A stretch of 64,000 nucleotides of DNA from Aquilaria yunnanensis (Eukaryota; Streptophyta; Magnoliopsida; Malvales; Thymelaeaceae). Location: contig CM077599.1 in NCBI GenBank assembly GCA_039654915.1, positions 28,705,501 to 28,769,500 on the forward strand. The letters run 5' to 3'. The notes below the pieces were generated by a model. It worked only from the letters and a program-made list of their open reading frames with translations, was not told where the DNA came from and did not search any database. This document shows positions 42,644 through 64,000 of this stretch, piece by piece. The position numbers and the translations under genes were made by a program. Numbering within the stretch: position 1 is the stretch's first letter; the number at the start of each line of letters is the position of its first letter.

Positions 42644-42645
42644 TA

Positions 42646-44797: not shown

Positions 44798-44805
44798 TAT
44801 AAATA
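44798..44805 (+). promoter_or_regulatory. LTR TATA box
   Basis: TATAAATA in ctctataaatagcccccc, within the left quarter of the LTR. Transcription would start about 30 bp downstream, near acacagagaaa. The copy in the 3' LTR is at 62,640-62,647. Confidence 0.7.
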
Positions 44806-45229: not shown

Positions 45230-45640
45230 CATTATTACTAACTTTTATAATTGTTGTTAACAATTAATTAACTTTTATTATTGTTGTTAATTAATTAATT
45301 TAATTAACTTGGCTAGCTTTTTATTATTTTTGTTAATTAATTAATTTAATTAATTTGGCTAACTTTTTATTTATTGTTGTTAATTAATTTAATTAATTTG
45401 GCTAACTTTTTATTTATTGTTGTTAATTAATTTAATTAATTTGGCTAACTTTTTATTATTGTTGTTAATTAATTAATTTAATTAACTTGGCTAACTTTTT
45501 ACTGTTGTTAATTAATTAATTTAATTAACTTGGCTAACTTTTTATTATTGTGGTTAATTAATTAATTTAATTAACTTGACTAACTTTTTATTATTGTTGT
45601 TTAACAATTAATTTAATTAACTTTGCTAACATTTATTATT
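45230..45640 (+). repeat. LTR minisatellite (ttggctaactttttatt / ttaattaatt units)
   Basis: About seven to eight imperfect head-to-tail units of roughly 45-60 bp alternating ttggctaactttttatta and palindromic ttaattaatttaattaa. The same array is present in the 3' LTR (about 63,072-63,482). Confidence 0.8.
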
Positions 45641-46052
45641 ATTTTTAAAGTGGATGGCCAAAAAGCCCCACTTTATTATTATTAATTTTTTTTCTTTATA
45701 TAATTTTTTTATTTAATTCACCTTTACCCTTTACTAATTAATAAATAAATGAAAATTAAAAGAAGATTATTTTGTAATTAATTATTAAGGCTAATAAAAA
45801 TTATTTTTAAAAAAGCCAATTATTTTTATTTTTATATACATGTTTTTAATTCTCTAAAGATAACAAAAAGTTAAAATTAATTTTAATAGTTATTTTTATC
45901 CAGTAAAAATAATAAAAAAATAAAAATAAAACCTGTTTAAAAAAAATACATGAAAATTAAGACTTTATATTTTACTGATTTATTTAAAATATAACTTTTA
46001 AATCCACTAAAATAATAAATATTTTTCATTAAACAAGAAAACAAAAAGAAAA

Positions 46053-46150
46053 TTAAAACAAGATAAGAAAAAGATAAGAAAGATAAGAAAAAGATAATAA
46101 AGATAAGAAAGATAAGATAAGATAAGAAAGATAAGAAGGAAAAGAAAGAA
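46053..46150 (+). repeat. gataagaaa-type purine microsatellite in LTR
   Basis: An irregular run of aagataagaaagataag units, recurring at the right edge of the window in the 3' LTR. Confidence 0.8.
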
Positions 46151-46426
46151 AAGAAAGAAAAATATAGAAAATAAAAATTTTTAGATTATTAATGAATCTA
46201 AAAATTCTATAACAAAAAGAATTACGAATTAGTAATTAAACTAATAATTAATTCCATAAAAATAAGAATTAAATAATTAACTATAAATTAAATCAACTTA
46301 CATATCCGGATGATCCGTCAGGATCTGCGGTTTAAAAAAAATATCACCCTTTTAATTAAATAAAAAAAAAAAGATAAAAATCCATATTTACAATATGGAT
46401 TAAATTATTTAAAAGTTCACCAAATT

Positions 46427-46513
46427 CCGTGTCCAAATGACTCGGCAGAGTCCATGGTTCGGAATAAAAAATCTTCCGTGTCCAAATGACTCGGCAGAGT
46501 CCATGGTTCGGAA
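46427..46513 (+). repeat. tandem duplication in LTR R-U5 region
   Basis: The segment starting ccgtgtccaaatgactcggc and ending gtccatggttcgga occurs twice, about 47 bp apart, with no differences in that core. Confidence 0.8.
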
Positions 46514-46790
46514 GTATAAAATTTCATACAAATTAATTAATTTAAAAATCCACATTTCGACTAATCCAGTTAAAATTTCTAATTTTGAAAATTAACTGAG
46601 AATTATTTAAAAGCAAAGCAAAACAAAATTAAAATCAACTAAGGTGCCAATTTTTGGGCGTTTTAACAAAGTTGTTTTAACGTAACCGTACTCCCGATCC
46701 CCGAACTCTCGCAGACCAATTTTAAGGTGACCAATCGACCTAAGAAAACTGATTGGTGGCGACTCCCGAAAACCCGACGTTGCCACAGCT

Positions 46791-46808
46791 TGGCGACTCC
46801 GCTGGGGA
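46791..46808 (+). other. primer-binding site, tRNA-Arg type
   Basis: TGGCGACTCCGCTGGGGA begins three bases after the LTR end. It opens with TGG, the complement of a tRNA CCA tail, and fits the 3' end of plant tRNA-Arg, which is known to prime Ogre-type elements. The tRNA match is from recall, not a search. Confidence 0.82.
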
Positions 46809-47892: not shown

Positions 47893-50800
47893 ATGGCAGA
47901 ACAAGCCGAAGGACGTCTCATGGAGATGGAGTCCAAGATTGAAAGTATGTCAGAACAGATGAAACAATTGATGGAATTAATCAAAGGGAAAGCAACTCAA
48001 GTCCCCATCAAAGAAGTACAAGATCCCACTTATCCCCCGGGATTCACCCCGCAACGAGTCTCAGTCCAAGAAAACCTGTTTCAAGAATCAGGACCCTCTG
48101 CTAGTGTTCACCTGAAACAAGACACTGTACAGGAAGAGAAGAAGACATTACCAAAAGATGAAGCAGAATCTCAAAAAATCGAGACAATAGAGAAAAGACT
48201 GAGAGCCATTGAAGGAGGCACTATATTCGGATCCCTTTCAGTGGATGACCTCTGCTTAGTGCCAGACGTCGTAATCCCTTCAGATTTTAAGGTGCCAGAT
48301 TTCGTAAAATACGATGGAACGAGTGATCCCATCACTCACATCACTTTGTTTCTCAGAAGACTACAACCACTTACCAAAGATGAGAAGGTGTGGATCGCAC
48401 TTTTTCAGGAAAGTCTCACAAAATCAGCATTACAGTGGTATCTAAGCCAAGGTCCAAGAAACATAAAAACTTGGAATGACCTTGCTCAGGCCTTCATCGG
48501 CAACTATAAACATGTTATGGACTTAGCTCCGGATCGCCAAACTCTCCAAAACATGGAGAAGAAAAAAACAGAAACTTTTAAGGAATACGCCCAACGATGG
48601 AGGGACTTAGCTGCACAAGTACAGCCACCCATGACAGAAAGAGAAATGGTCACTTTGTTTGTCCAGACACTGAAATACCCATATTATGACAAACTTATTG
48701 GCAATGCGGCAACTAACTTCTCCGACGTAGTCATGTCTGGAGAAAGGATCGAGCATGGTATCAGGACCGGGAAGATTACTGAATCCTTTAGCGATCCTAT
48801 GAAAAGAGGAGGACCTTCTAGAAGAAAAGATGAAGAAATACAACAAATCGGACGAGGAAGAGGGATTCCCCTCGTGGGTACCGTGGCTACCGGACCTCGC
48901 CTATCCTATTCTGCCAACAGGCCCAATTATTATCCTACCAATAGGCCCAATGATTATCCTCCAAATAGGCCCAGTGATTATCTTCCCAATAGACCCAACA
49001 ATTATCCTCTCAACAGGCCTAATCAGTTACGGCCACCTGTTCCGACTCCTCCAATGCCTGCACCAAGACCAAGAGAAATTTTCGCACCGATTCCCATGAC
49101 TTATACTGAGTTATATCCAAAACTCATCCAGAGCCAACTCATTCACCCAATTCCCACAAGGCCATTCGAACCCCCATATCCAACATGGTATGACCCTAAA
49201 CTAAATTGCCCATATCATGATGGTGCCGTGGGCCACGGACTCGAAAATTGCATAGCATTGAAGCGTATAGTCCAACAATTAATTGAGTCAAAGTGGTTGG
49301 ACTTTTCCGATGAACCAAACGTCACTCATAATCCATTGCCTCCTCATCAAGCCAAACCAGTCAATATGATGGAAGAATACTGGCCGATGAAGAAAACAGT
49401 CAATGATATCATAACCCCTCTTAAGCATGTATATTCATGCCTTGTGAAAGAAGGGATTATCACAGGAAAGTCTTCTGGAAATAAAGAAGTCGAGCATGAG
49501 GAATGGTGCAACTTTCATAACAGTAAGAATCATTCTATCCAAGAATGCCCAGAATTCCGTAAAAGTCTACAAAGTCTCATGGACTCCTCCCAAATCATCG
49601 TTTTTATGTCAGATAAAGAGGATGACGTGAATGTGATAATTAAAGAACAAGAAGTCAATATCATGCCAAGGCCACTAGTCATTCCAATCTCAAAATCTGC
49701 TCTCAAGCCTTTAAGAATTCAAGTTCCAAAGCCATTCCCATACAAATCAGACAAAACTGTTCCATGGAACTATGGCTATACTTCTAACATCACATCAACT
49801 CCGTTAGAAGTTGGGGGCATGACTAGAAGTGGTCGGTGTTATTCTCCCGAGCAAATGAATAAGCTCCAACAAGAGAAGAATGTTACGGATCCAGCAAATG
49901 GACCTATTAACACATCTAAAGAGCAAGAGATGCCTCGAGCAGTAACAGATGAACAAGCTACTGAGTTTCTCAAACTCATAAAGCAAAGTGAATACAGCAT
50001 CGTAGAGCAGTTGAACCGTCTGCCAGCAAAGATCTCCATACTTTCATTGCTCTTAAGTTCTGATGCCCATCGAGAAGCTCTTCTCAAAGTCCTGAATAAG
50101 GCTTATGTTGAACAAGATATCTCCGTGAACAACTTTGACCACCTTGTCAACAACATCACGGCACAAAATCTCATCACATTCACTGACGATGAGATACCAG
50201 CAGAAGGAAGGGGTCACTCTAAGGCTCTACATATTTCGATTAAATACAAAGATCGGATTATGGCTAGAGTTCTGATCGACAATGGATCAGCTCTAAATGT
50301 AATGCCATTAGAAACTTTACATAAGATCGGTTTAGACCCATCACACCTCAACAACAGTCATATTGTTGTTCGAGCATTTGACGGAACGAAGAGAGATGTT
50401 GTTGGAGAAATAGAGCTACCAATAGGGATTGGTCCCTGTCTTTTCCACATCACATTCCAAGTCATGGATATTTGTCCATCTTATACCTGCCTGCTGGGAA
50501 GACCATGGATCCATATGGCCGGAGCAATTCCTTCTTCATTACACCAGAAAATGAAATTCATTATTGAAGGAAAGATAATCACGGTCTTCGCTGAAGAAGA
50601 CATCCTGCTATCAAGACCTGCGGATGCTCAATATGTCGAAGTCAATGAAAATGTACCTGATTGCTCCTTCAGGTCTTTTGAAATTGTCAATGCTGCTTAT
50701 GTCAGCGAATATGAAGAAGAACCCATTCCTAGCATCTCTAAAACAAGTCGCATGGTTGCCAAACTCATGATAAAAGGAGGATACTCACCGGGGTTAGGAC

Positions 50801-51204
50801 TGGGACAAGATTTACAAGGAATCACAGAACCATTGAAAATCACCACAAATGAAGGGAAATACGGCCTAGGCTTCACACCGACAAGACATGATAAAATGAA
50901 GGCAATAGCTGAAAAGAGAGAAAAGAGGATTGCACGATTAACAGGGCATCCTCTCCAGGAAAGAAATCTGGATATCCCTGAAATCACCGAAACGTTCGTG
51001 AGTGGTGGTCTCATTCCAAAAAATGAAAATGAAGGCAAGCTGACTATCAACATCAACAAGTCTTTTGAAAGTCTTTCTATTCAGGCAATCATCAGCGATT
51101 CACCTGAAGAGGAGGAGCTCATTCAACCTTGTGGCCCACGGGATGTGCTGAACAATTGGGAGGCGATAGAACTGCCTGTTATAATTGAAAGCTTTCCAAA
51201 GTAA
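47893..51204 (+). CDS. Gag-protease polyprotein (1,103 aa)
   Basis: A coiled-coil N-terminus (residues 1-33) is followed by a retrotransposon gag domain (about 167-305, WIALFQESLTKSALQWYLSQ to ERIEHGIRTG), then a repeated N-R-P-x-x-Y-P tract (about 342-380). Two Cys/His motifs (CPYHDGAVGHGLENC, CNFHNSKNHSIQEC) may stand in for zinc knuckles. An aspartic protease has LIDNGSALNV with the active aspartate at residue 796. A G-patch-like segment (about 953-997, GYSPGLGLGQDLQGI) follows. Gag forms the particle; protease cleaves the polyproteins. The stop (51,202-51,204) lies inside the predicted splice donor, so unspliced RNA gives Gag-protease alone. The G-patch is an RNA-binding module seen in some retroelement and retroviral proteases. 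Confidence 0.92.
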   Translation: MAEQAEGRLMEMESKIESMSEQMKQLMELIKGKATQVPIKEVQDPTYPPGFTPQRVSVQENLFQESGPSASVHLKQDTVQEEKKTLPKDEAESQKIETIEKRLRAIEGGTIFGSLSVDDLCLVPDVVIPSDFKVPDFVKYDGTSDPITHITLFLRRLQPLTKDEKVWIALFQESLTKSALQWYLSQGPRNIKTWNDLAQAFIGNYKHVMDLAPDRQTLQNMEKKKTETFKEYAQRWRDLAAQVQPPMTEREMVTLFVQTLKYPYYDKLIGNAATNFSDVVMSGERIEHGIRTGKITESFSDPMKRGGPSRRKDEEIQQIGRGRGIPLVGTVATGPRLSYSANRPNYYPTNRPNDYPPNRPSDYLPNRPNNYPLNRPNQLRPPVPTPPMPAPRPREIFAPIPMTYTELYPKLIQSQLIHPIPTRPFEPPYPTWYDPKLNCPYHDGAVGHGLENCIALKRIVQQLIESKWLDFSDEPNVTHNPLPPHQAKPVNMMEEYWPMKKTVNDIITPLKHVYSCLVKEGIITGKSSGNKEVEHEEWCNFHNSKNHSIQECPEFRKSLQSLMDSSQIIVFMSDKEDDVNVIIKEQEVNIMPRPLVIPISKSALKPLRIQVPKPFPYKSDKTVPWNYGYTSNITSTPLEVGGMTRSGRCYSPEQMNKLQQEKNVTDPANGPINTSKEQEMPRAVTDEQATEFLKLIKQSEYSIVEQLNRLPAKISILSLLLSSDAHREALLKVLNKAYVEQDISVNNFDHLVNNITAQNLITFTDDEIPAEGRGHSKALHISIKYKDRIMARVLIDNGSALNVMPLETLHKIGLDPSHLNNSHIVVRAFDGTKRDVVGEIELPIGIGPCLFHITFQVMDICPSYTCLLGRPWIHMAGAIPSSLHQKMKFIIEGKIITVFAEEDILLSRPADAQYVEVNENVPDCSFRSFEIVNAAYVSEYEEEPIPSISKTSRMVAKLMIKGGYSPGLGLGQDLQGITEPLKITTNEGKYGLGFTPTRHDKMKAIAEKREKRIARLTGHPLQERNLDIPEITETFVSGGLIPKNENEGKLTININKSFESLSIQAIISDSPEEEELIQPCGPRDVLNNWEAIELPVIIESFPK

Positions 51205-51407
51205 TCTAATAGTAAAAACCTCCTAAAGAAAGGTTCAATCAATAGGGTGTAGTCTTTGTTTAAGTGAACCTTTTAGTTATTGCTTTTTATTCCAATAAAG
51301 TTGTGATTTATGCACATTGTAAATAAAGTACCAGTTTGCATCCATCTCATTCGTGCCATTTTTTTTTTTTTTCTCTCTTCTCTTTCTTTCCTCTCTGGAT
51401 AATGCAG
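51201..51407 (+). other. predicted 207-bp intron joining gag-protease to pol
   Basis: The donor is GTAATC at 51,201, two bases into the last gag sense codon, and its TAA is the gag stop. The acceptor is TGCAG ending at 51,407, after a long pyrimidine tract (about 51,358-51,397). Splicing is phase 2 and keeps the frame: the pol frame is closed just upstream of the acceptor (TAA at 51,400) and open from it. An intron at this place is established for Ogre elements. Intron retention would give Gag-protease; splicing, the full polyprotein. RNA evidence is needed. Confidence 0.8.
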
Positions 51408-54400
51408 ACCCAAAACTCTCTTTGATGACAATGAAAGAATGAACTTTGATAATCCTGTAAACACTACCGACTCGGATGACGAAGATCTTCAAGTATCTCC
51501 TGAGCTATTAAAAATGATTGAGCGAGATGAAAAAGAAAGAGCAACAAGTCAAGAACCAACTGAGGTATTCAACCTGGGAGACAGTCAGGATGTAAAAGAA
51601 GTCAAGATTGGCCCTTTATTCCCTCCTGAAGAAAAAGAAGAATTAGTCCATTTATTGAAAGAATATGTGGATGTATTCGCTTGGTCATACCAAGATATGC
51701 CTGGCTTAAGCTCAGACATAGTACTACACAAAATACCTTTGAAGCCTGGGGCGAAGCCTGTCAGACAGAAGTTACGAAGATTAAAGCCGGAGTTAATCTT
51801 AAGAGTAAAAGACGAGATTCGAAAGCTGTGGGATGCAGGATTTCTTGGGGTCGCTGAATATACAGAATGGGTGGTTAACATTGTCCCAGTCGAAAAGAAA
51901 GAAAGTGGGAAACTAAGAGTTTGTCAGGACTACCGGCCTTTGAACGAAGCCAGTCCTAAAGATAACTTCCCACTTCCTCATATTGATACACTGGTGGATA
52001 ATACCGCAGGAAACTCCTACTTTTCCTTCATGGATGGTTTTTCTGGATACAATCAAATCAAACTTGATCCAGATGACATGATAAAAACTGCTTTTATTAC
52101 CCTTTGGGGTACCTTCTACTATAAGGTGATGCCTTTCGGGTTAAAGAATGCTGGTGCTACATATCAAAGAGCCATGGTCACGTTGTTCCATGACATGATG
52201 CATAAAGAAATTGAAGTATATGTGGACGACATGATTGCCAAAACTTTCACTGCTGGGGGGCATCTAAAAGTGCTAAGAAAACTATTCGATAGACTTCGCA
52301 AATATCAATTGAAGTTGAATCCTGCCAAATGTACTTTTGGAGCCTCTTCAGGAAAGTTATTGGGTTTCATAGTCAGCAAGGACGGGATTCGAGTTGACCC
52401 GAGTAAAGTCAAAGCGATACAAGAAATGCAACCCCCGAAGACTCCAAAACAAGTAAGAAGTTTTCTGGGTAGAATCAACTTCATAGCAAGGTTCATATCA
52501 CAATTGACGTCCAAGTGTGAACCGCTTTTCAAATCACTAAAGAAGAACAATCCGATTGAGTGGAATAACGAATGCCAAGAAGCGTTCGAGAAAATCAAAC
52601 GATATCTATCAAATCCACCAGTCTTGATACCACCTCGATCCGGAGAACCGTTGATTCTATATTTATCCATACAGGATTCTTCATTAGGATCCGTATTGGG
52701 TCAACGTGATGAGACAAGCAAGAAGGAGCATGCAATTTACTATTTGAGCAAAAAGCTTACCACATATGAAGCTAAATACTCAATAGTAGAAAAGTCCTGT
52801 TGTGCCCTTGCATGGGTAGCACATCGACTACGACACTACATGCTCAACAACACAACATTACTGATCTCCAAGACTGACCCCATTAAGTACATTTTCGAGA
52901 AACCCGCTTTATCAGGCAGGATTGCAAAATGGCAAATGCTGTTATCTGAATACGACATACAGTATGTCACCCAAAAGGCCGTAAAAGGAAGTGTGATCGC
53001 TGAATATCTGGCTGATAGAGCATTAGAGGATTATGAGCCCATGAGAATGGACTTTCCTGATGGAGATATAATGACGATAGAACAGGAAGTCGATGAAGAA
53101 AATGAAACATGGAAAATGGCATTCGATGGAGCATCTAATGCTTTGGGACAAGGGATCGGAGCTATACTCATCTCTCCAAGCGGAGAGCAGTTTCCCCTCA
53201 CAGCAAAAATTACATTTCCTTGTACCAACAATATAGTAGAGTATGAAGCATGTGCTATGGGACTCCAAATGGCATTGGATTTGAAAGTGCGAGATCTCCG
53301 AGTCTATGGGGATTCCGCATTAGTCATATATCAAATCAATGGAGAATGGGAGACAAGAGATTCAAAATTGATCCCTTACCAAAAGCTCATACTAAACTTG
53401 GCTCGAAAATTCAACAGTATAAGCTTCCATCATCTTCCAAGGGAAGATAATCAAATACCGGATGCTTTAGCTACTTTGGCTGTTATGTACAAGATCAGTG
53501 ACCCCGAGCATACTCCTATATTCGAGATGAGAATAATAGATTCTCCAGCTTATTGCATGAGCATCGAAGAAGAATTGGATGGAAAGCCTTGGTATCACGA
53601 TATCAAGAAATACCTCCAAGAAAGAGTATATCCACCAGAAGTATCAGAAAATGACAAGAAATTTCTACGAAGATTGTCAATGGGTTTTCTTTTAAACCTA
53701 GACATACTTTACAAGAAAACCCCAGACTCGATGCTACTTCGCTGTGTAGATACTCATGAAGCACGAAAGATCATGGAAGAAGTTCATTCTGGAATATGTG
53801 GAGCACACACTAGTGGTCATACTATGGCAAGACAAATAATGAGGGCTGGTTACTATTGGCTCACATTGGAAAGTGATTGCGTCAATCACGTAAGAAAATG
53901 TCACAAATGCCAAATATATGCCAACAAGATCCAAGCTCCACCTGTTCCTCTTAATGTAACAGCAATACCTTGGCCTTTTGCCATGTGGGGAATCGATGTT
54001 ATTGGAGCGATTACCCCTAAAGCTTCCAATGGTCACAAATTCATCCTAGTTGCAATTGACTACTTTACTAAATGGGTAGAAGCTGTGTCTTATGCAAGCG
54101 TAACTCAAAAGGTGGTATGCCGGTTCATTAAGAAAGAAATCATTTGTCGCTATGGACCGCCAGAGTGTATCATCTCAGACAATGCCACGAACCTGAATAA
54201 TGCAATGATGCAGACTTTGTGCCGGCAATTCAAAATCAAGCATCTCAATTCAGCACCTTATCGACCGATGATGAATGGTGCAGTAGAAGCGGCCAATAAA
54301 AATATCAAGAGAATTGTTGAAAAGATGATCGTCACTTACAAGGACTGGCATGAGATGTTACCTTTTGCACTGCATGCTTATAGAACTTCTACCCGTACTT

Positions 54401-54837
54401 CTACTGGAGCAACACCTTTTTCTCTGGTATACGGTATGGAGGCTGTATTGCCTATCGAAGTTGAAATTCCTTCATTAAGGGTACTAATGGATACTCAATT
54501 AGGAGAAGCAGAATGGGTCAAAGCTAGATACGAGCAATTAAATCTAATTGATGAAAGAAGAATGATAGCCCTCTGCCATGGGCAACTTTATCAAAGAAGG
54601 ATGATTCGTGCTTACAACAAAAAGGTTCGCCCACGACAATTTCACGAAGGTGACATAGTGCTCAAGAAAATTTTACCCATGCAACATGATTCAAGAGGAA
54701 AATGGACACCAAATTATGACGGGCCATATGTCGTGAAGAAAGCATTTTCAGGAGGGGCACTAATTCTGACAGAAATGGATGGACGAGAATTACCGAAGCC
54801 AGTAAATTCGGATGCAGTAAAGAAATACTTTGCATAA
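51408..54837 (+). CDS. Pol: reverse transcriptase, RNase H, archaeal-type RNase H, integrase
   Basis: The first ATG is at 51,439 (1,132 aa); the frame is open from the acceptor at 51,408. The RT has FSFMDGFSGYNQI and YVDD (residues 261-264). The classical Ty3-type RNase H follows but seems to lack its first catalytic aspartate (LYLSIQDSSLGSVL where TDAS is usual). A second, archaeal-type RNase H keeps D563 (FDGAS), E in VEYEA, D625 (GDSAL) and D in NQIPDALA. The integrase has an HHCC finger (about 775-825), a D853-D914-35-E950 triad and a C-terminal basic part. It copies RNA to DNA and inserts it. A doubled RNase H marks the Tat lineage. Confidence 0.93.
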
Positions 54838-56203
54838 TGAAGAAATTTTCGAACAGAAGGGGAGAAGTGGATACAGGGTTACCAAAGTTTATTTGATCAA
54901 AGTTATCAAAGAGAGCTTTCTTCCCTTACACTTTCATTATCTATCTGTACCCAAGATTTTCATATTCTTTTACCCATAAATAAAAGCCAATTCTCTTTAA
55001 CTTACCTTAGATTCTCACGTTCAAAATGCTAAAGTCGCTTCTATCCAGTTCTTTTCCTTCGAATCTCACATTCCTACTAGCCTTAAGTGTGCAATAAATT
55101 GTGACTTTTGAAGGAAGAATAGTAATAATTAAAACTTAGAAAAAACAAAGACCGTAGATTACTTTGATAAGCTTTATGAATTAAAACAGGTAAGATTGAG
55201 GTCCTGCTTTGCGAGCGGCACAGAACATAGGCTAACAAAGAAGAAGGAGTAACAAATCTTTGGGAGATAGCCTTGGTGGTAGCCTGAATGATCGCTTCAG
55301 AAGTCTTAACACGTCCATGTCAGCAAGAAAGAATCATACTCACGAATATCTCAACAGGGACAATTATCCAGAGAGGCATAAAGTACGAGGCGGACATTAA
55401 GGAAATTGAAGCCAAAATTTAAGAACAAATCAAGGAAAGAAGATTTTTGAAAAGAGTTAGGCTTTTGAGACAATGGACAATAGCTGGAAAGCGAGACAAT
55501 GAACAACAGCTGGAAAGCAAGACAATGAACAACAGCTGGAAAGTGAAACAATGGACAACAGTTGGAAAGCATAAAGAGATTCAACGATAGAAGGCAATTA
55601 CAAAGAGGATCCAGTAAAGCAAAGATATAAAAAATAAATCCATCAGTTACACATGCTCTGCATTCATGCATTTCACATCATGCATGCATGGCATACAGAA
55701 CAAGGATCAAATGGGAAGCGTATCCACCGCACAGTCACAGCAGTATAAGCTGACGTCTCAGTGACATCCGTTTTTACCAATCTACCGCTGGATGCACAGC
55801 TGATATAGTGGACCCAGCCCCATCAGCAATTCAAGGATAAAGTAGACAATATTGTCAAAATCCTGGTAATCAATTCAATAATCGAGGCTACACCGGGATG
55901 GACAGAATTGACGCCAGCTTAGCGGTATCCAAGATAAGAAATAACTATGGTCAAAGATAAGTGCGGATATCGAGAAATATTGTCGTCCAAAGCAGACAAT
56001 GGATTCAATAATCAAGGACTGGATCAATGTCATGCCTGATGAGATATCAAAGATAAGAAATATCTATGATACTAAAATAAAGCAGAATCCACTTTTCCGG
56101 TTAAACGGCGGATACGGTACTCCGTGACTCTCAAGTCGGTTCTCTCAGTTGCCCATAATAACTGATACCTTCACCCCTTCTTTCTTTTACTTCCTCCTAG
56201 AAA
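54838..56203 (+). other. spacer between integrase and accessory genes
   Basis: No sense-strand gene. A 106-codon antisense frame (55,351-55,671) overlaps a repeat and is not credible. Loosely repeated phrases (attcaataatc, atcaaagataagaaatatct) at 55,870-56,070 suggest old tandem duplication. The end (56,105-56,200) resembles the regions upstream of accessory copies 2 and 3, so it is part of the duplicated gene unit. Confidence 0.6.
55467..55570 (+). repeat. 26-bp tandem repeat, four copies
   Basis: Unit of the form gagacaatgaacaacagctg + gaaagc, with one to three changes between copies. Confidence 0.9.
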
Positions 56204-56752
56204 ATGGATCCTACTTTTTCTGCCTTGCGAAAGTATTTCCCTTCTCTCCCAATGAACATCCTAAAAAAGATCTACCGAGTTCGCTGTGAACGATTAAGAG
56301 CTCTGATGCATAAAGGAATCCCTGAAGATGTGCGGTGGTTAATTGAAGCTAAGGTTCGTCTGGCAGGCGAAATCCCAGAGGCATTTGTGTCTTACATGCC
56401 TGGTGTTGGCAAAAGTTCTTATGCCAGAAAAAGAAGAGCGAAAAGATTACAAGTCTGCCATAAATGTGGTAGGTGGACTTGTAAGACTAGGTGTCGTTCT
56501 TTAGGAATGATCTCCAATAATCGAGAAGATAAAATACGGTTCATCAAGAATGGCTTGAGTAAGGACTCATTGGATGATATCCAATTGACTCTTGAGACGC
56601 ATTCTTGTGGATCTGTGCAACGTGAAATTCTTGATTTATGGAGTATTTTTCATGAAGAACGAGACCGTTACAGTCCCGGGAATCTGACTTTAAACGACCC
56701 TGTTTGCCGGTTTGTAAGAAAGCTGGATGGGAAGCAGATCCTCGACTCATAG
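56204..56752 (+). CDS. accessory gene copy 1: basic cysteine-rich protein resembling carlavirus NABP (182 aa)
   Basis: A helical N-terminus (ALRKYFPSLPMNILKKIY, residues 7-24) precedes a central basic segment GKSSYARKRRAKRL (69-82) and a cysteine cluster C85-x2-C88-x4-C93-x3-C97. A conserved FIKNGL follows (113-118), then a C-terminal THSCG (132-136) and LNDPVC. The order G-[KR]-S-x-Y-A-basic-RRA, paired cysteines, then F-I-x-x-G resembles the nucleic-acid-binding cysteine-rich proteins of carlaviruses (Pfam Viral_NABP); the cysteine spacing is not the same. The basic stretch could bind nucleic acid and act as a nuclear signal. Viral relatives are linked to silencing suppression and altered host transcription; that function here is inference. 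About 70% identical to copy 2 by hand count. Confidence 0.8.
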   Translation: MDPTFSALRKYFPSLPMNILKKIYRVRCERLRALMHKGIPEDVRWLIEAKVRLAGEIPEAFVSYMPGVGKSSYARKRRAKRLQVCHKCGRWTCKTRCRSLGMISNNREDKIRFIKNGLSKDSLDDIQLTLETHSCGSVQREILDLWSIFHEERDRYSPGNLTLNDPVCRFVRKLDGKQILDS

Positions 56753-56914
56753 AAGCCGTTAATGCCGTTACTGGACGTAAAACCAGTGGAAGATGTGAGC
56801 CACAGTCACAATTACTGTACATACAGTTTGTTATATTTGGAAAAATTTGCATTTTCTTTTGACAGATGTACATGCTCCCCTAAGTGTAATCGACACGTTA
56901 TCCCTTTTCATCAC

Positions 56915-56922
56915 TATAAATG
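56915..56922 (+). promoter_or_regulatory. TATA box upstream of accessory copy 2
   Basis: TATAAATG within tcatcactataaatgcgtgt, 120 bp before the ATG of copy 2. The same 25-bp neighbourhood recurs upstream of copy 3, so the promoter-like segment was duplicated with the gene. Confidence 0.55.
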
Positions 56923-57041
56923 CGTGTTCTTCCTTCTGATTAAACAACAGATAAGATACCCCGTGACTTCTAAAGTCGATTATTCCAGTTTCCTGTAATA
57001 ACTGATTCATTTCCCTCTTCTCTCAAATTCTTCTCTCATCA

Positions 57042-57590
57042 ATGGATTCTACTCTTTCTGTACTGCGAAAATACTTTCCTTCCCTCCCACTAAAAGTCCT
57101 TAAAAAGATCTACCTTGCTAGATGTGAAAGAATCAGAGTTTTTACACGCAAAGGCATTCCCGATAATGTGCAGTGGATAATTGAAGCTAAGGTCCGTTTG
57201 GCGGGTGAAGTTCCAGATGCATTCATGCCCCGCATGCCCGGTTTAGGTAAAAGCCGTTATGCCAAAAGGCGAAGAGCAAAGAGACTAGGCGTGTGTTATA
57301 AATGTGGGCGATGGAATTGTAATACTAAATGTCGCTCTTTAGGATACATCTCCATAAATCGTGAAGATAAAAGAAAATTCATTAAGAATGGCCTGCGTAA
57401 GGAGTCTCTGAAAGATATCCGAGAGACTCTTGAAACGCATTCTTGTGGAAAAGTGCAAGGTGAAATTATCGGTTTATGGAGGACTTACCATAAAGAACGA
57501 AACCGTTACAGTCTTGGGAATGTGATTTTAAACGACCCCGTTTGTCAGTTTGTAAGAAAACTAGATGGGAAGCAAATCCCCGACTTATAG
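57042..57590 (+). CDS. accessory gene copy 2: basic cysteine-rich protein (182 aa)
   Basis: Collinear with copy 1 without gaps: LRKYFPSLP, the basic GKSRYAKRRRAKRL (69-82), cysteines C85, C88, C93 and C97 (CYKCGRWNCNTKC), FIKNGL, ETHSCG and LNDPVCQFVRKLDGKQ. 127 of 182 residues match copy 1 by hand count, so the duplication is much older than this insertion, yet the frame is intact. Its upstream region holds a TATA box and a stretch like that before copies 1 and 3 (ccccgtgacttctaaagtcg...ataactgatt). Length matches copy 1 exactly. Same family call and uncertainty as copy 1. Confidence 0.8.
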   Translation: MDSTLSVLRKYFPSLPLKVLKKIYLARCERIRVFTRKGIPDNVQWIIEAKVRLAGEVPDAFMPRMPGLGKSRYAKRRRAKRLGVCYKCGRWNCNTKCRSLGYISINREDKRKFIKNGLRKESLKDIRETLETHSCGKVQGEIIGLWRTYHKERNRYSLGNVILNDPVCQFVRKLDGKQIPDL

Positions 57591-57739
57591 AAGGCATTGA
57601 AGCCATTACTGGACATGAATTAGTGGAAGATGAGAGCCACAGTCATGATTGCTGTACATATAAGCTGTCATTTGTCTTTTCTTTTGGCAATAATGTACTT
57701 ACTTCCGTAAGTGTAATAAACGCATTATCCTTTCATCAC

Positions 57740-57747
57740 TATAAATG
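57740..57747 (+). promoter_or_regulatory. TATA box upstream of accessory copy 3
   Basis: TATAAATG in tcatcactataaatgcgtgt, 108 bp before the preferred ATG of copy 3 and nearly identical in context to the box before copy 2. Confidence 0.55.
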
Positions 57748-57854
57748 CGTGTTCTTCCTTCTGGATACGGTACTCCATAACTCCCAAATTCAGTTATTTC
57801 CATTTCCTACAATCACTAATTTCTTTCTTTTTCTCTTAAATGCCTCATTCATCA

Positions 57855-58403
57855 ATGGAGCCTTCTCTTTCCGCTCTACGAAAATATTTCCCTTCTTTCC
57901 CAATAAATGTTCTTAAAAAGGTTTATCAAGCTAGATGTGAACGATTCCGACTATTTATGCACAAAGGCATTCCTGATAATGTGCGATGGCTAATCGAAGC
58001 TAAAGTTCGTTCGGCTGGTGAAGTTCCAGATGCGTTCTTTCCCCGTATGCCCGGCTTTGGTAAAAGCGTTTATGCCAAAAAGAGAAGAGCAAAGAGGCTA
58101 GGCGTCTGTCACAATTGTGGATGGTGGATTTGCGGCAATAAATGTCGTTCTCCAGGAGTGATCACCAGAAATCGTAATGATAGAATAAAATTCATCAAGA
58201 ATGGCTTGCGTAAGGAATCTCTGGAAGATATCCGAGAGGTTCTTGAAGCGCATTCTTGCGGAATAGTGCAATTTGAGGTTGTTGGATTATGGATAATTCT
58301 CCAAAAAGAACGAGAACGTTACAGTCTTGGGAATCTGACCCTAAACGACCCTGTTTGCCAGTTTGTGAAAAAGCTAGATGAGATGCAAATCACTGATTCA
58401 TAG
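57855..58403 (+). CDS. accessory gene copy 3: basic cysteine-rich protein (182 aa)
   Basis: The frame also has an ATG at 57,840, but the ATG at 57,855 (MEPSLSALRKYF) aligns with the starts of copies 1 and 2 and gives the same 182-aa length, so it is preferred. It keeps the basic GKSVYAKKRRAKRL block, all four cysteines (CHNCGWWICGNKC), FIKNGL, AHSCG and LNDPVCQF. It departs most at GRW to GWW and near the C-terminus (KLDEMQ). It is followed at once by an array of 85-bp repeats derived in part from its own 3' flank. Same family call as copy 1. Confidence 0.8.
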   Translation: MEPSLSALRKYFPSFPINVLKKVYQARCERFRLFMHKGIPDNVRWLIEAKVRSAGEVPDAFFPRMPGFGKSVYAKKRRAKRLGVCHNCGWWICGNKCRSPGVITRNRNDRIKFIKNGLRKESLEDIREVLEAHSCGIVQFEVVGLWIILQKERERYSLGNLTLNDPVCQFVKKLDEMQITDS

Positions 58404-58442
58404 AAAGCATTGAAGCCGTTACTGGACGCAAAGCCAGTAGAA

Positions 58443-58925
58443 GACGGAACAAGGTCACGATTACTGTACGTGCTAGCTGTCGCTTTTGAAATTTTCCTCC
58501 CCTTTTGATAATAATGTATCCACTCCTGACATGAACCAAAGTCACGATTACTGTACGTGCTAGCTGTCGCTTTTGAAATTTTCCTCCTCTTTCAGCAATA
58601 ATGTATCCACTCTTGACATAAGCCATAGTCACGATACTGTACATGCTAGCTGACGCTTTTGAAATTTTCCTCCCATAATGTACCCACTCCTGACATGAGC
58701 TATAATTATGACTACTGTATATACCTGCCACTTTTGAAATTTTCCTTCTCATCCGACAATCATGTACCTACTCCTGACATAAGCTACAGCCGCGACTACT
58801 GTACATGCTAGCAGCTATTTTGAAAATTTTCCTCCTCTTTTAATGATAGTGTACCCATACCTGACCAAAATCATACTCGTGACTACTGTGAATAGCTGGC
58901 AATAATGTATCCATTCTTGAAAATA
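58443..58925 (+). repeat. imperfect tandem repeat, about six units of 80-90 bp, between copy 3 and LOG
   Basis: Each unit contains cacgattactgtacgtgcta, gcttttgaaattttcctcc and aatgtatccactcctgacat in that order. The first units are most alike and the later ones progressively diverge. The gtcac-gattactgtac part also follows copies 1 and 2 once each (about 56,805 and 57,640), so the array amplified a flank of the accessory gene. Confidence 0.85.
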
Positions 58926-58951
58926 AAATTATTGCCTTATCTCTTCATCTC

Positions 58952-58959
58952 TATAAATA
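58952..58959 (+). promoter_or_regulatory. TATA box upstream of LOG gene
   Basis: TATAAATA in cttcatctctataaatatat, 33 bp before the ATG at 58,992. If used, it gives a very short leader and rules out the earlier in-frame ATG at 58,905. Confidence 0.5.
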
Positions 58960-58991
58960 TATCCTCTTTTCTCACAAGGGTAAGGATAGAA

Positions 58992-59621
58992 ATGGAGAAA
59001 ACCCCAACTCGTAAATCCCGAAGTATTTGTGTATTTTCTGGGGCTTTTCCTGGAAAAGATGAAGAGTATTTAAAAGCAGCCAACCATTTGGGTAGAGTAT
59101 TAGCTGAGCGAAAAATACATTTAGTTTATGGAGGAGGTAGTGTCGGATTAATGGGAGGTGTAGCATCAGCAGCATCTCTAGGAGGAAGTCAAGTTCTGGG
59201 CATTATTCCTGGACCTCTGAAATTTATTTCTGGGGGCACGATTGGAGAAGAATTAGTGGTTAAAAATTTACAAGAGCGTGTGTTACAAATGCTTTTAAAT
59301 GCTGATGTTTTTATCGCTCTACTAGGTGGTTTTGGCACATTGGGAGAAGTCTTTCAAATTGCTTCCATGGCCCAACTTAATTTGCATAAGAAACCCATTG
59401 GGCTTTTAAATGTTAACAATTTCTTTACAGGTCTGATAGCTTTTATGGATTATGCTATGCAGAAGAATTTTATATCAAGAGTGGCACGGCGAATCATAAT
59501 ATCCGCAACAACTGCTGAAGAATTGCTAGATAAAATACAAGCTTTTGTTCCTGAACCAGATCCAGCAATGATTCAGATAGACTGGACGCGACAGTCTTTC
59601 CCGAACAGTTCAATCCCATAA
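58992..59621 (+). CDS. LOG-family cytokinin riboside 5'-monophosphate phosphoribohydrolase (209 aa), intronless
   Basis: The LOG family releases active free-base cytokinins from riboside monophosphates in the cytosol and nucleus. Here ICVFSGAFPGKDEEY (12-26), LVYGGGSVGLMG (44-55), the arginine of the MHxRKxxM motif (R96 in LQERVLQM), GGFGTLGE with E119 (112-119), and KPIGLLNV all fit. 209 aa is a normal LOG length. Three departures from usual LOG: S16 for the cysteine in VFCGSS, V97 for lysine in RK, and L111 for proline in PGGxGT. The first ATG (58,905) would add 29 hydrophobic residues; 58,992 matches normal LOG starts. Plant LOG genes usually have several introns; none is present, fitting capture of a spliced mRNA. 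Activity is plausible, not certain. Confidence 0.85.
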   Translation: MEKTPTRKSRSICVFSGAFPGKDEEYLKAANHLGRVLAERKIHLVYGGGSVGLMGGVASAASLGGSQVLGIIPGPLKFISGGTIGEELVVKNLQERVLQMLLNADVFIALLGGFGTLGEVFQIASMAQLNLHKKPIGLLNVNNFFTGLIAFMDYAMQKNFISRVARRIIISATTAEELLDKIQAFVPEPDPAMIQIDWTRQSFPNSSIP

Positions 59622-60136
59622 TAGTCCTCTACTAACCCGGTTGAAATATTGTGGAAGAAGAAGTGATCCGATCCGTTTTGCTTGTCCTTTAGTTTTATTA
59701 TCAGCATTTTCTTTCGTGTTTTAGTTTTTCTTTCAGGGAATTTCTTTTTTTATCTTATAAGATAGTCTCGTTCATGCTGATATTAAAACCATAGGACAAT
59801 GCCTTTAGGTTGGAATGGCTGAGTAAAGAGTAATTTTTATTGCTCTTGAGACGCATCCTATTAGGTCTACTAGGCATAACATTTTAGGATAGTTAAGCTT
59901 CAACCTTATTTGGATGACATATCTCTCAAGCGAATCTATATTTACTAAAGAAAATATTAGATGAACCTTGGATATTGATTCCAAACATCCGTTCCCTTTA
60001 CATAATTTGTTAGCGATATTGTCATCATCAAGATTCACTCATTTTATCGAAGTCTAAAATTTCGCACTCGCCTATTATGCAAATTCACACTTTCGAAGAA
60101 AATTATTCCAATTCTAATTGCTTTCATATAAATTTC
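59622..60136 (+). other. 3' region of LOG gene, no further gene
   Basis: AT-rich, no open frame of note. The pyrimidine-rich stretch at about 59,690-59,760 could be part of a 3' UTR. I cannot place a polyadenylation site. Confidence 0.45.
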
Positions 60137-61967
60137 GCTCGAGGTTCAAGGAGATTTCCTTAACCTCATTCCATCAATTTTCCTTCAAACGATAGGAGAG
60201 TTCCTATCGTCGAGGTTCTAAGGTAGGGCCCTTAACCTCAAAATCATCAATTTTCCTTCAAACGATAGGAGAGTTCCTATCATCGAGGCTCTAAGGTAGG
60301 ACCCTTAACCTCAAAACAATCAATTTTACTTCAAGCGATAGGAGAGTTCCTATCGTCGAGGTTCTAAGGTAGGACCCTTAACCTCATTCAAACAATTTTC
60401 CTTCAAACGATAGGAGAGTTCCTATCGTCGAGGTTCTAAGGTAGGACCCTTAACCTCAAAATCATCAATTTTACTTCAAACGATAGGAGAGTTCCTATCG
60501 TCGAGGTTCTAAGGTAGGACCCTTAACCTCAAAACAATCAATTTTACTTCAAGCGATAGGAGAGTTCCTATCGTCGAGGTTCTAAGGTAGGGCCCTTAAC
60601 CTCAAAATCATCAATTTTCCTTCAAACGATAGAAGAGTTCCTATCGTCGAGGTTCTAAGGTAGGACCCTTAACCTCAAAACAATCAATTTTACTTCAAGC
60701 GATAGGAGAGTTCCTATCGTCGAGGTTCTAAGGTAGGACCCTTAACCTCAAAATCATCAATTTTACTTCAAGCGATAGGAGAGTTCCTATCGTCGAGGTT
60801 CTAAGGTAGGACCCTTAACCTCAAAATCATCAATTTTCCTTCAAACAATAGGAGAGTTCCTATCATCGAGGTTCTAAGGTAGGACCCTTAACCTCAAAAC
60901 AATCAATTTTACTTCAAGCGATAGGAGAGTTCCTATCGTCGAGGTTCTAAGGTAGGACCCTTAACCTCATTCAAACAATTTTCCTTCAAACGATAGGAGA
61001 GTTCCTATCGTCGAGGTTCTAAGGTAGGACCCTTAACCTCAAAATCATCAATTTTACTTCAAACGATAGGAGAGTTCCTATCGTCGAGGTTCTAAGGTAG
61101 GACCCTTAACCTCAAAACAATCAATTTTACTTCAAGCGATAGGAGAGTTCCTATCGTCGAGGTTCTAAGGTAGGGCCCTTAACCTCAAAATCATCAATTT
61201 TACTTCAAACGATAGGAGAGTTCCTATCGTCGAGGTTCTAAGGTAGGACCCTTAACCTCAAAACAATCAATTTTACTTCAAACGATAGGAGAGTTCCTAT
61301 CATCGAGGTTCTAAGGTAGGACCCTTAACCTCAAAAACAATCAATTTTACTTCAAGCGATAGGAGAGTTCCTATCGTCGAGGTTCTAAGGTAGGACCCTT
61401 AACCTCATTCAAACAATTTTCCTTCAAACGATAGGAGAGTTCCTATCGTCGAGGTTCTAAGGTAGGGCCCTTAACCTCAAAATCATCAATTTTCCTTCAA
61501 ACGATAGAAGAGTTCCTATCGTCGAGGTTCTAAGGTAGGACCCTTAATCTCAAAACAATCAATTTTACTTCAAACGATAGGAGAGTTCCTATCATCGAGG
61601 TTCTAAGGTAGGACCCTTAACCTCAAAAACAATCAATTTTACTTCAAGCGATAGGAGAGTTCCTATCGTCGAGGTTCTAAGGTAGGACCCTTAACCTCAT
61701 TCAAACAATTTTCCTTCAAACGATAGGAGAGTTCCTATCGTCGAGGTTCTAAGGTAGGGCCCTTAACCTCAAAATCATCAATTTTCCTTCAAACGATAGA
61801 AGAGTTCCTATCGTCGAGGTTCTAAGGTAGGACCCTTAACCTCAAAACAATCAATTTTACTTCAAACGATAGGAGAGTTCCTATCGTCGAGGTTCTAAGG
61901 TAGGACCCTTAACCTCAAAATTATCAAATTTTCCCTTCAACGATAGGAGAGTTCTTATCGCAGAGGC

Positions 61968-61970
<3 letters not shown>
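60137..61970 (+). repeat. 73-bp tandem array, 25 copies, each with a short hairpin
   Basis: I located 25 successive hairpin cores, from 60,191 to 61,942, spaced 72-74 bp. Each unit carries cgatagga-gagt-tcctatcg, a perfect 8-bp stem with a 4-base loop in most copies, then tcgaggttctaaggtagg and cccttaacctca. Linkers come in a few types (aaatcatc, aaacaatc, attcaaac), and units 17-20 and 21-24 repeat the same order 292 bp apart, so blocks of four units duplicated recently. A degenerate copy precedes the array. 3' tandem repeats are known in Tat elements and can seed satellite DNA. Confidence 0.95.

Positions 61971-62003
<33 letters not shown>
61971..62003 (+). repeat. 33-bp A tract
   Basis: An uninterrupted run of 33 A directly after the last, truncated 73-bp unit. 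It may be a fossil poly(A) tail or slippage product. Confidence 0.9.
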
Positions 62004-62007
<4 letters not shown>

Positions 62008-62108
62008 CTTAACCACATAGTTTAGGCGGCGAGAAGGTTCTCAATGGCTAGCTAAGACGGACGAAATTTGGTAACTACTTTGCATACATCATGTCCCATG
62101 AAGCATGC

Positions 62109-62120
62109 AAAGGGGGGCAG
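62109..62120 (+). other. polypurine tract
   Basis: AAAGGGGGGCAG ends one base before the 3' LTR start (TGTTGACACC at 62,122), the usual place for the plus-strand primer. Confidence 0.88.
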
Positions 62121-62121
62121 C

Positions 62122-64000
62122 TGTTGACACCCAATTTCGTCCGGCCTTTTTTTTTTTATTTTTTTAAAAAAAAAAAAAAAAAACTAATTAAAAAAATTAT
62201 TATTATTATTATTATTATTGCTAAAAAATTTTAATTATGTTAATTAGTTTAAAATATATTTTTATTTTGAGAAGATTTGATTTAAAATAATATATGTGTG
62301 AATATGTATGTGTTTGGAATAAAAATAAAATTTCAGAAAAAAATGACAAAAAATTAAAAAGTTCGAGATAAAAATAACAAAATTGAGAAGTTTCAGGCAA
62401 AATTGACAAATTCTGAAAGTTCCAGGAGCATTTGGTAGTTTGTCACATAAAATTTTGAGCCTGCCGACGTTTTTGGCTCAAATTGACAGAAAACGACAAA
62501 ATTGTCAAAATCAGAAGCTTCAGGAACTTATCCAGAGGCTGAGAGACGTAAAGGACTAAAATTGTCATTTTACCAATTTAAGAGATAAGTTTGAATTTTT
62601 TTATTAATTTATCCATCAACAGTTCAGCTAAACTTCCTCTATAAATAGCCCCCCAAATTTTGTGCTGAACACAGAGAAAAATAGAAAGAAAAGCTTAGAG
62701 CTCCGTTTTTAAAATAGAAAAAATTACAGCCTTAGTCCCTAGCTCTCCTTCCTTTCCTCAGAAAATCTCAAAACTTTTCATTTTGACGATTAAGCCATCT
62801 TCTTCCCCCCGCGCGCCCTCTGTTTCCATTTCTCAGAATTCAGAATTTAAAATCAAGGGTACAACTCTCATTTAATCCTTCATCTTTTCAATTTCTTTCA
62901 CTTTGGTCACTAACTTTGTATTTTATTCTTGCAGAATTAATTACTAACCCTTTTAATTTTTACTTGTTTGTTTATTATTTGTTTATTACTAACCCCTTTT
63001 TTTATTGTTGTTATTAACTTACTAACAACTAACTTTTAATACTATTATTGTTACTAACCTTTTAATTTTTGCATTATTACTAACTTTTATAATTGTTGTT
63101 AACAATTAATTAACTTTTATTATTGTTGTTAATTAATTAATTTAATTAACTTGGCTAGCTTTTTATTATTTTTGTTAATTAATTAATTTAATTAATTTGG
63201 CTAACTTTTTATTTATTGTTGTTAATTAATTTAATTAATTTGGCTAACTTTTTATTTATTGTTGTTAATTAATTTAATTAATTTGGCTAACTTTTTATTA
63301 TTGTTGTTAATTAATTAATTTAATTAACTTGGCTAACTTTTTACTGTTGTTAATTAATTAATTTAATTAACTTGGCTAACTTTTTATTATTGTGGTTAAT
63401 TAATTAATTTAATTAACTTGACTAACTTTTTATTATTGTTGTTTAACAATTAATTTAATTAACTTTGCTAACATTTATTATTATTTTTAAAGTGGATGGC
63501 CAAAAAGCCCCACTTTATTATTATTAATTTTTTTTCTTTATATAATTTTTTTATTTAATTCACCTTTACCCTTTACTAATTAATAAATAAATGAAAATTA
63601 AAAGAAGATTATTTTGTAATTAATTATTAAGGCTAATAAAAATTATTTTTAAAAAAGCCAATTATTTTTATTTTTATATACATGTTTTTAATTCTCTAAA
63701 GATAACAAAAAGTTAAAATTAATTTTAATAGTTATTTTTATCCAGTAAAAATAATAAAAAAATAAAAATAAAACCTGTTTAAAAAAAATACATGAAAATT
63801 AAGACTTTATATTTTACTGATTTATTTAAAATATAACTTTTAAATCCACTAAAATAATAAATATTTTTCATTAAACAAGAAAACAAAAAGAAAATTAAAA
63901 CAAGATAAGAAAAAGATAAGAAAGATAAGAAAAAGATAATAAAGATAAGAAAGATAAGATAAGATAAGAAAGATAAGAAGGAAAAGAAAGAAAAGAAAGA
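62122..64000 (+). repeat. 3' LTR, partial (first 1,879 bp of about 2,507)
   Basis: Matches 44,281-46,158 with one extra T in the first T-run and no other difference noticed in the lines compared. The window ends inside its purine microsatellite. Confidence 0.92.

Follow-up and report, generated by a model that had tools for sequence, protein, structure and literature searches.

An abundant Ogre/Tat retrotransposon family of Aquilaria carries three NABP genes and a LOG-like gene under purifying selection

The window, a stretch of 64,000 nucleotides of Aquilaria yunnanensis DNA, contains a complete and very young element belonging to an abundant Ogre/Tat retrotransposon family. Three NABP genes and one LOG-like gene lie between its integrase and its 3' LTR, and they constitute a stable accessory cassette of the family. 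This conclusion is based on linkage to pol at each of 51 loci or in the best-scoring pol partners, on the presence of many copies, on open reading frames, on purifying selection and on a promoter motif. Our main reading, to which we assign a probability of about 0.75, is that the cassette is element-borne, selected and has a host-directed role.

The Ogre-type (Tat) element extends from 44281 to 64629 (20,349 bp), its final stretch lying beyond the window end at 64000. When the next 1,000 bases past the window are included, the two LTRs (2507 and 2508 bp) differ by a single 1-base indel with 0 mismatches; within the window alone, 44281-46158 pairs with 62122-64000 at 99.95%. GCTAT is found on both flanks as the target-site duplication. 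The first-pass annotation had described a young element with near-identical LTRs, which is borne out; it is corrected in that the 3' LTR runs beyond the window. Its four open sense-strand genes between integrase and polypurine tract were all recovered. The features are as follows.

44276..44280, + strand: GCTAT target-site copy, just before the 5' LTR
44281..46787, + strand: 5' LTR, 2507 bp, TGTTGACACC...GTTGCCACA
46791..46808, + strand: primer binding site, TGGCGACTCCGCTGGGGA
47893..51204, + strand: gag-protease ORF, 1103 aa, with Retrotrans_gag and G-patch; Asp_protease_2 only under cut-off
51205..51438, + strand: 234-bp stretch separating two ORFs that share a frame, a probable (predicted) Ogre-type intron
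51439..54837, + strand: ORF for RT, RNase H, second RNase H (RVT_3) and integrase, 1132 aa
56204..56752, + strand: NABP1, 182 aa
56907..56921, + strand: TATA promoter motif upstream of NABP2, 15 bases
57042..57590, + strand: NABP2, 182 aa
57732..57746, + strand: TATA promoter motif upstream of NABP3, 15 bases
57855..58403, + strand: NABP3, 182 aa from the ATG at 57855; the ORF opens at 57840 (187 aa)
58450..58865, + strand: about five 87-bp repeats, by eye like the stretch separating the NABP genes
58944..58958, + strand: TATA promoter motif upstream of LOG, 15 bases
58992..59621, + strand: LOG-like gene, 209 aa; the ORF opens at 58905
60158..61972, + strand: 73-bp tandem array, about 25 copies
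62109..62121, + strand: polypurine tract, AAAGGGGGGCAGC
62122..64000 in the window, + strand: 3' LTR, running on to 64629 and followed by GCTAT

The domains of the pol product are arranged in the order RVT_1 (153-312), RT_RNaseH (403-505), RVT_3 (570-680), H2C2 (770-827) and rve (846-943). As predicted by eye, splicing from the GT at 51201 to the AG that ends at 51407 would excise 207 bases as the putative intron. The primer binding site may be of the tRNA-Arg type, which is linked to the Ogre/Tat lineage. Two units of the 73-bp array form hairpins when folded as RNA.

The cargo was present in all 51 loci examined, although L055, whose stretch ends early, has just part of the LOG gene. It was also carried by all 40 pol copies scored, which were the best 40 of 1273 candidates in the same genome. 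For 20 of the 40, a pol place fits a cargo place at roughly the offset expected (5,561 bp); the other 20 were fetched and aligned. NABP ORFs of at least 180 aa numbered three in 41 of the 51 loci, two in 7, one in 2 and four in 1, and a LOG ORF of at least 205 aa was found in 49. L018 and L038 have two NABP genes only. All 150 scored matches to NABP2 and all 150 to LOG were free of stops, giving at least 150 such copies of each. NABP copies are spread over contigs C1 to C8, and on C6 a LOG match lies 1.8-2.0 kb downstream of an NABP2 match in 22 of 29 cases. The own-genome copies are the best-scoring matches, in which older or broken ones are under-sampled and open frames are therefore over-represented. 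The first-pass claim that the cargo belongs to the element and moves with it is upheld by the 40 pol copies, and a check of other copies found neither a cargo unique to this element nor, among the best 40 of 1273, a copy of the same pol without cargo.

The same 15-base TATA motif precedes NABP2, NABP3 and LOG (3 found against 0.04 expected; none of 100 shuffles reached 3); NABP1 is without it. Two motifs rather than three were found in 7 of the 51 loci. Since each follows the same motif, NABP2, NABP3 and LOG look like independent transcription units, and they could be expressed apart from the gag-pol transcript.

NABP1-3 all score above the Pfam cut-offs for PF05515 and PF01623, with 26.6-32.7 bits against a gathering score of 23 for Viral NABP and 21.9-24.8 against 20.9 for Carla_C4, a modest match to the viral families that spans only about residues 34-127. 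The NABP3 gene of the first-pass annotation stands, its start moved to a probable 57855, the ATG that aligns with the starts of NABP1 and NABP2. There are 146 NABP homologues at E<=1e-3, most of those listed covering 80-100% of the query. In a tree of 84 NABP matches of 175-206 aa plus P0071, P0002 groups with NABP1 (100/91) and P0001 with NABP3 (100/99). L001, which we take to be an Athila-like element, has an NABP gene downstream of an integrase only 31% identical to the window pol, and in a gene model from Rhamnella NABP and LOG are fused. Named relatives of the pol include Theobroma, Populus, Cicer, Durio, Hibiscus, Vigna, Medicago and Vicia. NABP and LOG matches share three contig sizes (0.14 expected, the size range having been picked post hoc), a hint of little weight that the two lie on common contigs elsewhere. 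A scan of viral contigs for NABP relatives found none, and a profile search of solved structures with NABP gave a single chance-level match (E 0.77).

The cargo genes are under purifying selection. The median dN/dS of LOG was 0.065 (90 pairs with dS > 0.05), and with all pairs included the ratio of mean dN to mean dS was 0.083. The eight pairs with the greatest divergence (dS about 0.26) all include L051 and have a dN/dS of 0.05-0.07, so that the strongest figure depends on one copy. The LOG dS of L051 is about three times the adjoining noncoding divergence (9%), and for this reason its LOG may have been acquired by recombination from a more distant element. Compared with L010, synonymous and nonsynonymous changes numbered 31/6 in L051 (Fisher p = 1.4e-15), 7/0 in L015 (3.5e-5), 7/3 in L014 (2.2e-3), 5/2 in L050 (9.3e-3) and 2/0 in L042 (0.055); the smaller comparisons mostly agree with the L051-based ratio. 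The dN/dS values of LOG come from 45 of the 51 loci, leaving out L025 (shorter), L055 (cut), L059 (broken) and three with open LOG ORFs that a start-motif filter dropped (L036, L037 and L056). The NABP paralogues of the window gave dN/dS of 0.185-0.350, with bootstrap 95% ranges within 0.15-0.45, and NABP copies across loci gave medians of 0.133, 0.319 and 0.150. Selection on coding sequence is silent about which function is retained.

How else could such a cargo be explained? A one-off nested insertion of foreign genes into a single element copy has nothing in its favour and was rejected as next to impossible: the cargo was found in every copy examined, and of the 20 fetched pol places 16 give one unbroken alignment that starts at the end of pol and extends beyond LOG, the other 4 aligning in blocks. 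That annotation error produced the NABP genes, or that they resemble the viral families by chance, would agree with Pfam scores only 1 to 10 bits over the cut-offs, but it is very improbable given the number of homologues, the spread of copies over eight contigs and a C-x2-C-x4-C-x3-C pattern in 105 of the 120 matches listed (120 of 146); the protein family is real, and its kinship to viral proteins is the part in question. A neutral history deserves more thought, in which host genes were transduced by chance, amplified as passengers and stayed intact only because the copies are young. Of 31 cargo places, 26 are indeed 98-100% identical, as are all 40 pol places, and host gene capture is known for plant LTR elements (PMC7264820, in part). 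The excess of synonymous changes in LOG (L051 and L015 in particular), the constrained divergence of the three NABPs and the NABP gene of the Athila-like element all speak against it, and the dN/dS values leave it improbable.

The LOG gene raises the further question of whether it is still an enzyme. The gene itself is confirmed, but the earlier start at 58905 gives way to the ATG at 58992 as the most likely one, because the ATG at 58905 precedes the TATA box (58951) and the 209-aa form is the longest LOG ORF in 10 of 51 loci. The product scores 96.9 bits against PF03641 (Lysine_decarbox; cut-off 27), and Arabidopsis At2g37210 matches it at 6.1e-50. The catalytic R and the motif E are retained. 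The window LOG deviates from the PGGxGTxxE motif at the first residue (Pro), a correction to the first-pass annotation; the motif is intact in 44 of 45 family LOGs scored and exact in 103 of the 120 LOG matches listed (120 of 1983). In the Aquilaria family G replaces E before the final E of the motif. The Arg-Lys pair of Arabidopsis LOG is R followed by M, L or I in 104 of the 120 listed retro-type LOGs of the database and R-K in 6. Phosphoribohydrolase activity is uncertain on account of these changes and of the Pro lost in the window copy. One LOG comparison drew on 115 of the 120 listed matches (190-240 aa) and just two host LOGs; P0121 is a LOG at 89%. It is conceivable, if unlikely, that the retro-LOG has lost the cytokinin role and is a nucleotide-binding or regulatory protein, perhaps working alongside the NABPs in the nucleus. 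Besides the substituted pair, many retro-LOG matches carry at their C terminus a basic stretch and LxLxL, which we take to resemble the TOPLESS-recruiting EAR motif. LxLxL falls within the last 12 residues in 99 of the 120 listed (98 of 110 at 206-240 aa), with at least two K/R just upstream in 94 of the 99, and elsewhere in 2 of the 120. However, neither the window LOG nor P0121 has this tail, the catalytic residues (R and E) are conserved, and of the four cargo genes LOG is under the strongest purifying selection.

To return to the selected, element-borne cassette, the retention of its genes by selection suggests that the element may act on its host beyond copying itself. Of the three steps proposed, the likeliest is that the cargo proteins would benefit the element by acting in the host cell. 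That the NABPs would be zinc-finger proteins of the nucleus that bind nucleic acids and weaken RNA silencing or alter host transcription, by analogy with their carlavirus relatives, has slightly less than an even chance. It is rather doubtful that LOG would raise active cytokinin locally, keeping cells dividing and favouring germ-line passage. Silencing or growth effects together with cytokinin would fit the purifying selection, and also what is published on the activities of carlavirus cysteine-rich proteins (PMC12172455, in part). Silencing suppression and changes in host transcription and growth are linked to these viral proteins. A broader and tentative proposal is that Athila and Ogre/Tat (plant OTA) elements share a mobile NABP-LOG kit for host manipulation, with active NABPs and retro-LOG and a common origin with flexivirus suppressors through effector exchange between viruses and retrotransposons. 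The multiplied, separately promoted NABPs would suppress silencing or reprogram transcription, and the retro-LOG would activate cytokinin so that host cells keep dividing. In many cases no known domain is recognised in the extra ORFs that plant retrotransposons carry. The NABP-LOG cargo is directly testable, because it has recognisable domains, purifying selection, its own promoter motif and very young copies. Should the NABPs act like their viral kin, this would be an LTR retrotransposon with anti-silencing or growth factors of its own, and an active LOG would mean that a transposable element performs a plant-hormone step for its own spread.

Among known systems, two Athila-like elements with LOGL4 similarity were reportedly described by Steinbauerova in 2011. 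A LOG-bearing retrotransposon, at first thought unheard of, is already published: LOG-type (YgdH) domains occur in Ty3/gypsy LTR retrotransposons of Citrus and Populus (PMC9289625, in part, which cites Steinbauerova et al. 2011). The likeness is a LOG-type ORF aboard a plant LTR retrotransposon; the window LOG differs in that it belongs to a Tat/Ogre element, in which three NABP genes precede it and a promoter motif is shared. The literature searched held no report of NABP in retrotransposons, and the main text of PMC9289625 has no mention of 'carla', 'NABP' or 'nucleic acid binding'. The cysteine-rich (NABP) proteins of carlaviruses, allexiviruses and mandariviruses (PMC12172455, in part) share with ours a Cys zinc finger with a basic stretch ahead of it, and PF05515 and PF01623. 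The retro-NABPs differ from them in having 182 aa, N- and C-terminal regions that are conserved beyond the Pfam match and usually three paralogues, and they sit in an LTR retrotransposon, not in a flexivirus genome. The VANC proteins of VANDAL DNA transposons are transposon-coded and counter host silencing; they resemble the NABPs as candidate anti-silencing proteins, for which the activity is inferred only, and differ in element class and in protein.

Retand with its antisense TRP28 ORFs (PMC11963269, in part) is alike in its long region between pol and 3' LTR, accessory ORFs and tandem arrays, and has the same domain order as Ogre (PMC6317226, in part). Athila membership, marked by lack of a second RNase H, was rejected, RVT_3 being present in the window pol. 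The element agrees with Ogre (Tat, Ty3/gypsy), as described in parts of PMC6317226, in the following: a two-ORF polyprotein, an additional RNase H (here RVT_3) placed after the first one and ahead of the integrase, a long LTR, tandem repeats, eORF space and a short inter-ORF gap, of 234 bp here and a mean of 274 bp between the published gag-pro and RT-INT ORFs. The plant mobile domain, common but not universal at 57% of published Ogre eORFs (PMC6317226, in part), is absent from all six ORF products scanned in the window element, and its eORF region has no ATG-started antisense ORF > 120 aa. In contrast with the published Ogre eORFs, this region has three NABP genes and a LOG gene in the sense direction.

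The Ogre-type (Tat) element is delimited by the following features.

44281-46787, plus strand, 5' LTR, 2507 bp, with the primer binding site (PBS) directly downstream
after the 5' LTR end at 46787, PBS, TGGCGACTCCGCTGGGGA
62122-64629, plus strand, 3' LTR, 2508 bp, its end seen after 1,000 bases past the window were added

The LTRs had been described as near-identical in the first-pass annotation, and the alignment of 2507 with 2508 bp bears this out, with no mismatch and one 1-base indel. Since the LTRs differ by this indel alone and GCTAT flanks the element at both ends, the insertion is complete and very recent. The gag-pro ORF (1103 aa) and the RT-RH-aRH-INT ORF (1132 aa) are both open and share a frame, with a gap of 234 bp between them. 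Theobroma, Populus, Cicer, Durio, Hibiscus, Medicago and Vicia are among the named sources of pol relatives in the protein search; by precomputed Pfam lists, neither domain of the cargo, NABP or LOG, occurs in any of the best 120 of 1294 pol proteins. A 73-bp array of about 25 units occupies 60158-61972, and two folded units form hairpins more stable than all 200 shuffles (z -3.7). The array length seems to vary among copies, because many match ends of the genome copies step by about 73 bases. By eye, the window also holds a Ty1/copia-type reverse transcriptase fragment (26016-26837) and a leucine-rich-repeat receptor-like fragment (2945-3430); G+A-rich and C+T-rich minisatellites lie at 42224-43179, about 1 kb upstream of the insertion.

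The cargo between the integrase and the PPT consists of four sense ORFs. NABP1, NABP2 and NABP3 are each 182 aa counted from the homologous ATG, pass the curated Pfam cut-offs for Viral_NABP and Carla_C4, and are 67-72% identical in protein sequence; LOG scores above the curated cut-off for Lysine_decarbox. The two stretches between the NABPs are homologous (205 of 262 aligned bases identical). The motif TTCATCWCTATAAAT precedes NABP2, NABP3 and LOG, three occurrences in the window against 0.04 expected; it is absent upstream of NABP1 and, with one mismatch allowed, from the rest of the 64 kb. The sequences upstream of these three genes also align with one another. We read the arrangement as a multiplied gene-plus-promoter unit, with LOG behind a putative promoter of the same type; on this reading the LOG start is most likely at 58992.

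Copies were sought in the 842-Mb genome (345 contigs, the window on C7 at 28705501-28769500). The cargo DNA search (best 31 of 6184 candidates scored) gave 31 main places on contigs C1-C8, the window's own among them, at 95-100% identity, and the pol DNA search (best 40 of 1273) gave 40 places at 98-100%. Twenty of the 40 pol places lie at about the expected distance of 5,561 bp from a cargo place. The remaining 20 were fetched, and 20/20 run on from pol into NABP and LOG, 16 as a single alignment and four more diverged loci (L050, L051, L055 and L056) in blocks. Looking for the cargo beside pol in other copies had been proposed at the outset, and it was present in all 40 of these best-scoring places. 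Among 51 loci, which are best-scoring matches from which the share of broken copies is not readable, NABP ORFs of at least 180 aa number three in 41, two in 7, one in 2 and four in 1, and a LOG of at least 205 aa is open in 49; in the other two, the L055 stretch ends before LOG does and the L059 LOG ORF is short. The promoter motif, with its seventh base free, occurs three times per locus in 44/51 and twice in 7/51. L018 and L038 have two NABPs and L055 has four. L018 contains a chimera of NABP1 and NABP2 that opens with a codon other than ATG, a sign of recombination between NABP paralogues; unequal recombination within the cassette likely lies behind both the varying NABP number and this chimera. 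Protein searches of the genome gave at least 150 stop-free matches each for NABP2 (best 150 of 8655 candidates) and LOG (best 150 of 3663). On C6, the only contig tabulated, 22 of the 29 NABP2 matches listed are followed 1.8-2.0 kb downstream by a listed LOG match.

Pairwise dN/dS was calculated for 45 LOGs. The median was 0.065 (90 pairs with dS >0.05) and mean dN over mean dS was 0.083 for all pairs; the eight most diverged pairs, all involving L051, had dS of about 0.26 and dN/dS of 0.05-0.07. Counted against L010 (148 synonymous and 479 nonsynonymous sites), synonymous/nonsynonymous differences were 31/6 in L051, 7/0 in L015, 7/3 in L014, 5/2 in L050 and 2/0 in L042; the L042 count does not reach significance by itself (p 0.055). 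The L051 LOG may have been exchanged via recombination with a more distant element, because its dS of 0.26 is about three times the divergence of the noncoding DNA 3' of LOG (about 9%); such an exchange leaves the excess of silent changes as it is. Median dN/dS among NABP copies was 0.133 for NABP1 (356 pairs), 0.319 for NABP2 (146) and 0.150 for NABP3 (183). Between the paralogues it was 0.185-0.350 (several methods; YN00 without one pair), with bootstrap 95% ranges of 0.16-0.39, 0.15-0.39 and 0.19-0.45. By the low dN/dS and the silent excess, selection has preserved the cargo proteins, LOG most, during the spread of the element.

Relatives were also found beyond this genome. The NABP protein search returned 146 proteins at E<=1e-3, with Xanthoceras, Acer, Rhamnella and Orobanche among the named sources of the best 120. 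The LOG search returned 1983; Reevesia supplies many of the best 120, and Paulownia, Populus and Xanthoceras are among the sources of the others. In the NABP tree, whose bootstrap is not fully settled, database protein P0002 groups with NABP1 (100/91) and P0001 with NABP3 (100/99), so the triplication is older than the split between the window family and the elements encoding P0001 and P0002. The two proteins may belong to a different species or to a subfamily of greater age within the same plant. The window LOG sits among database LOGs, apart from the Arabidopsis LOGs, in a tree that included two host LOGs. In L001, an outside contig, an integrase ORF, which we take to be Athila-like, is followed about 200 bases on by a NABP in sense orientation that shares 71% identity with NABP1. 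L001 is plant-like retrotransposon sequence filed under a Candidatus Nomurabacteria MAG, and P0247, a plant-type pol, is filed as Salmonella enterica; both filings are probably contamination. Two Rhamnella proteins show related arrangements: P0082 joins an integrase end similar to that of L001 to a NABP (by eye), and P0094 is a gene model with NABP then LOG. Because of these three arrangements, NABP is judged common to two Ogre-Tat-Athila clades, and perhaps the NABP-LOG pair is too.

In the window LOG family, G replaces the E usual in most LOGs just before the final E of the motif, and the residue following the conserved R is not K. R is followed by M, L or I in 104 of the 120 best of 1983 database LOG matches (R-K in Arabidopsis LOG). 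The window LOG is the one of 45 family copies to deviate at the first motif residue, and it departs from 10 of 87 columns conserved at >=90%, the most among 116 aligned LOGs. Such departures count against a simple enzymatic reading. A C-terminal LxLxL, presumably EAR-like, ends 99 of the same 120 database LOGs, preceded by at least two K/R in 94 of the 99; it is absent from the window LOG and from P0121, a database protein. C-x2-C-x4-C-x3-C occurs in 105 of 120 retro-NABPs (best 120 of 146), 97 with a preceding basic stretch. In the proposed function, the NABPs would work inside the nucleus to counter silencing or to affect host transcription, and LOG would raise cytokinin; both actions would aid expression and transmission of the element in dividing cells.

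LTR retrotransposons with LOG-type domains are already described in PMC9289625. Among the titles listed in searches of open-licence full texts, none concerns NABP genes in retrotransposons. Accessory ORFs of other kinds are described in PMC11963269 and PMC7264820. According to PMC6317226, Ogre elements carry a second RNase H between RNase H and integrase, plus an inter-ORF gap, which in the Ogre elements of pea and Medicago is an intron; the window element is alike in having a second RNase H before the integrase and a gap, here of 234 bp.
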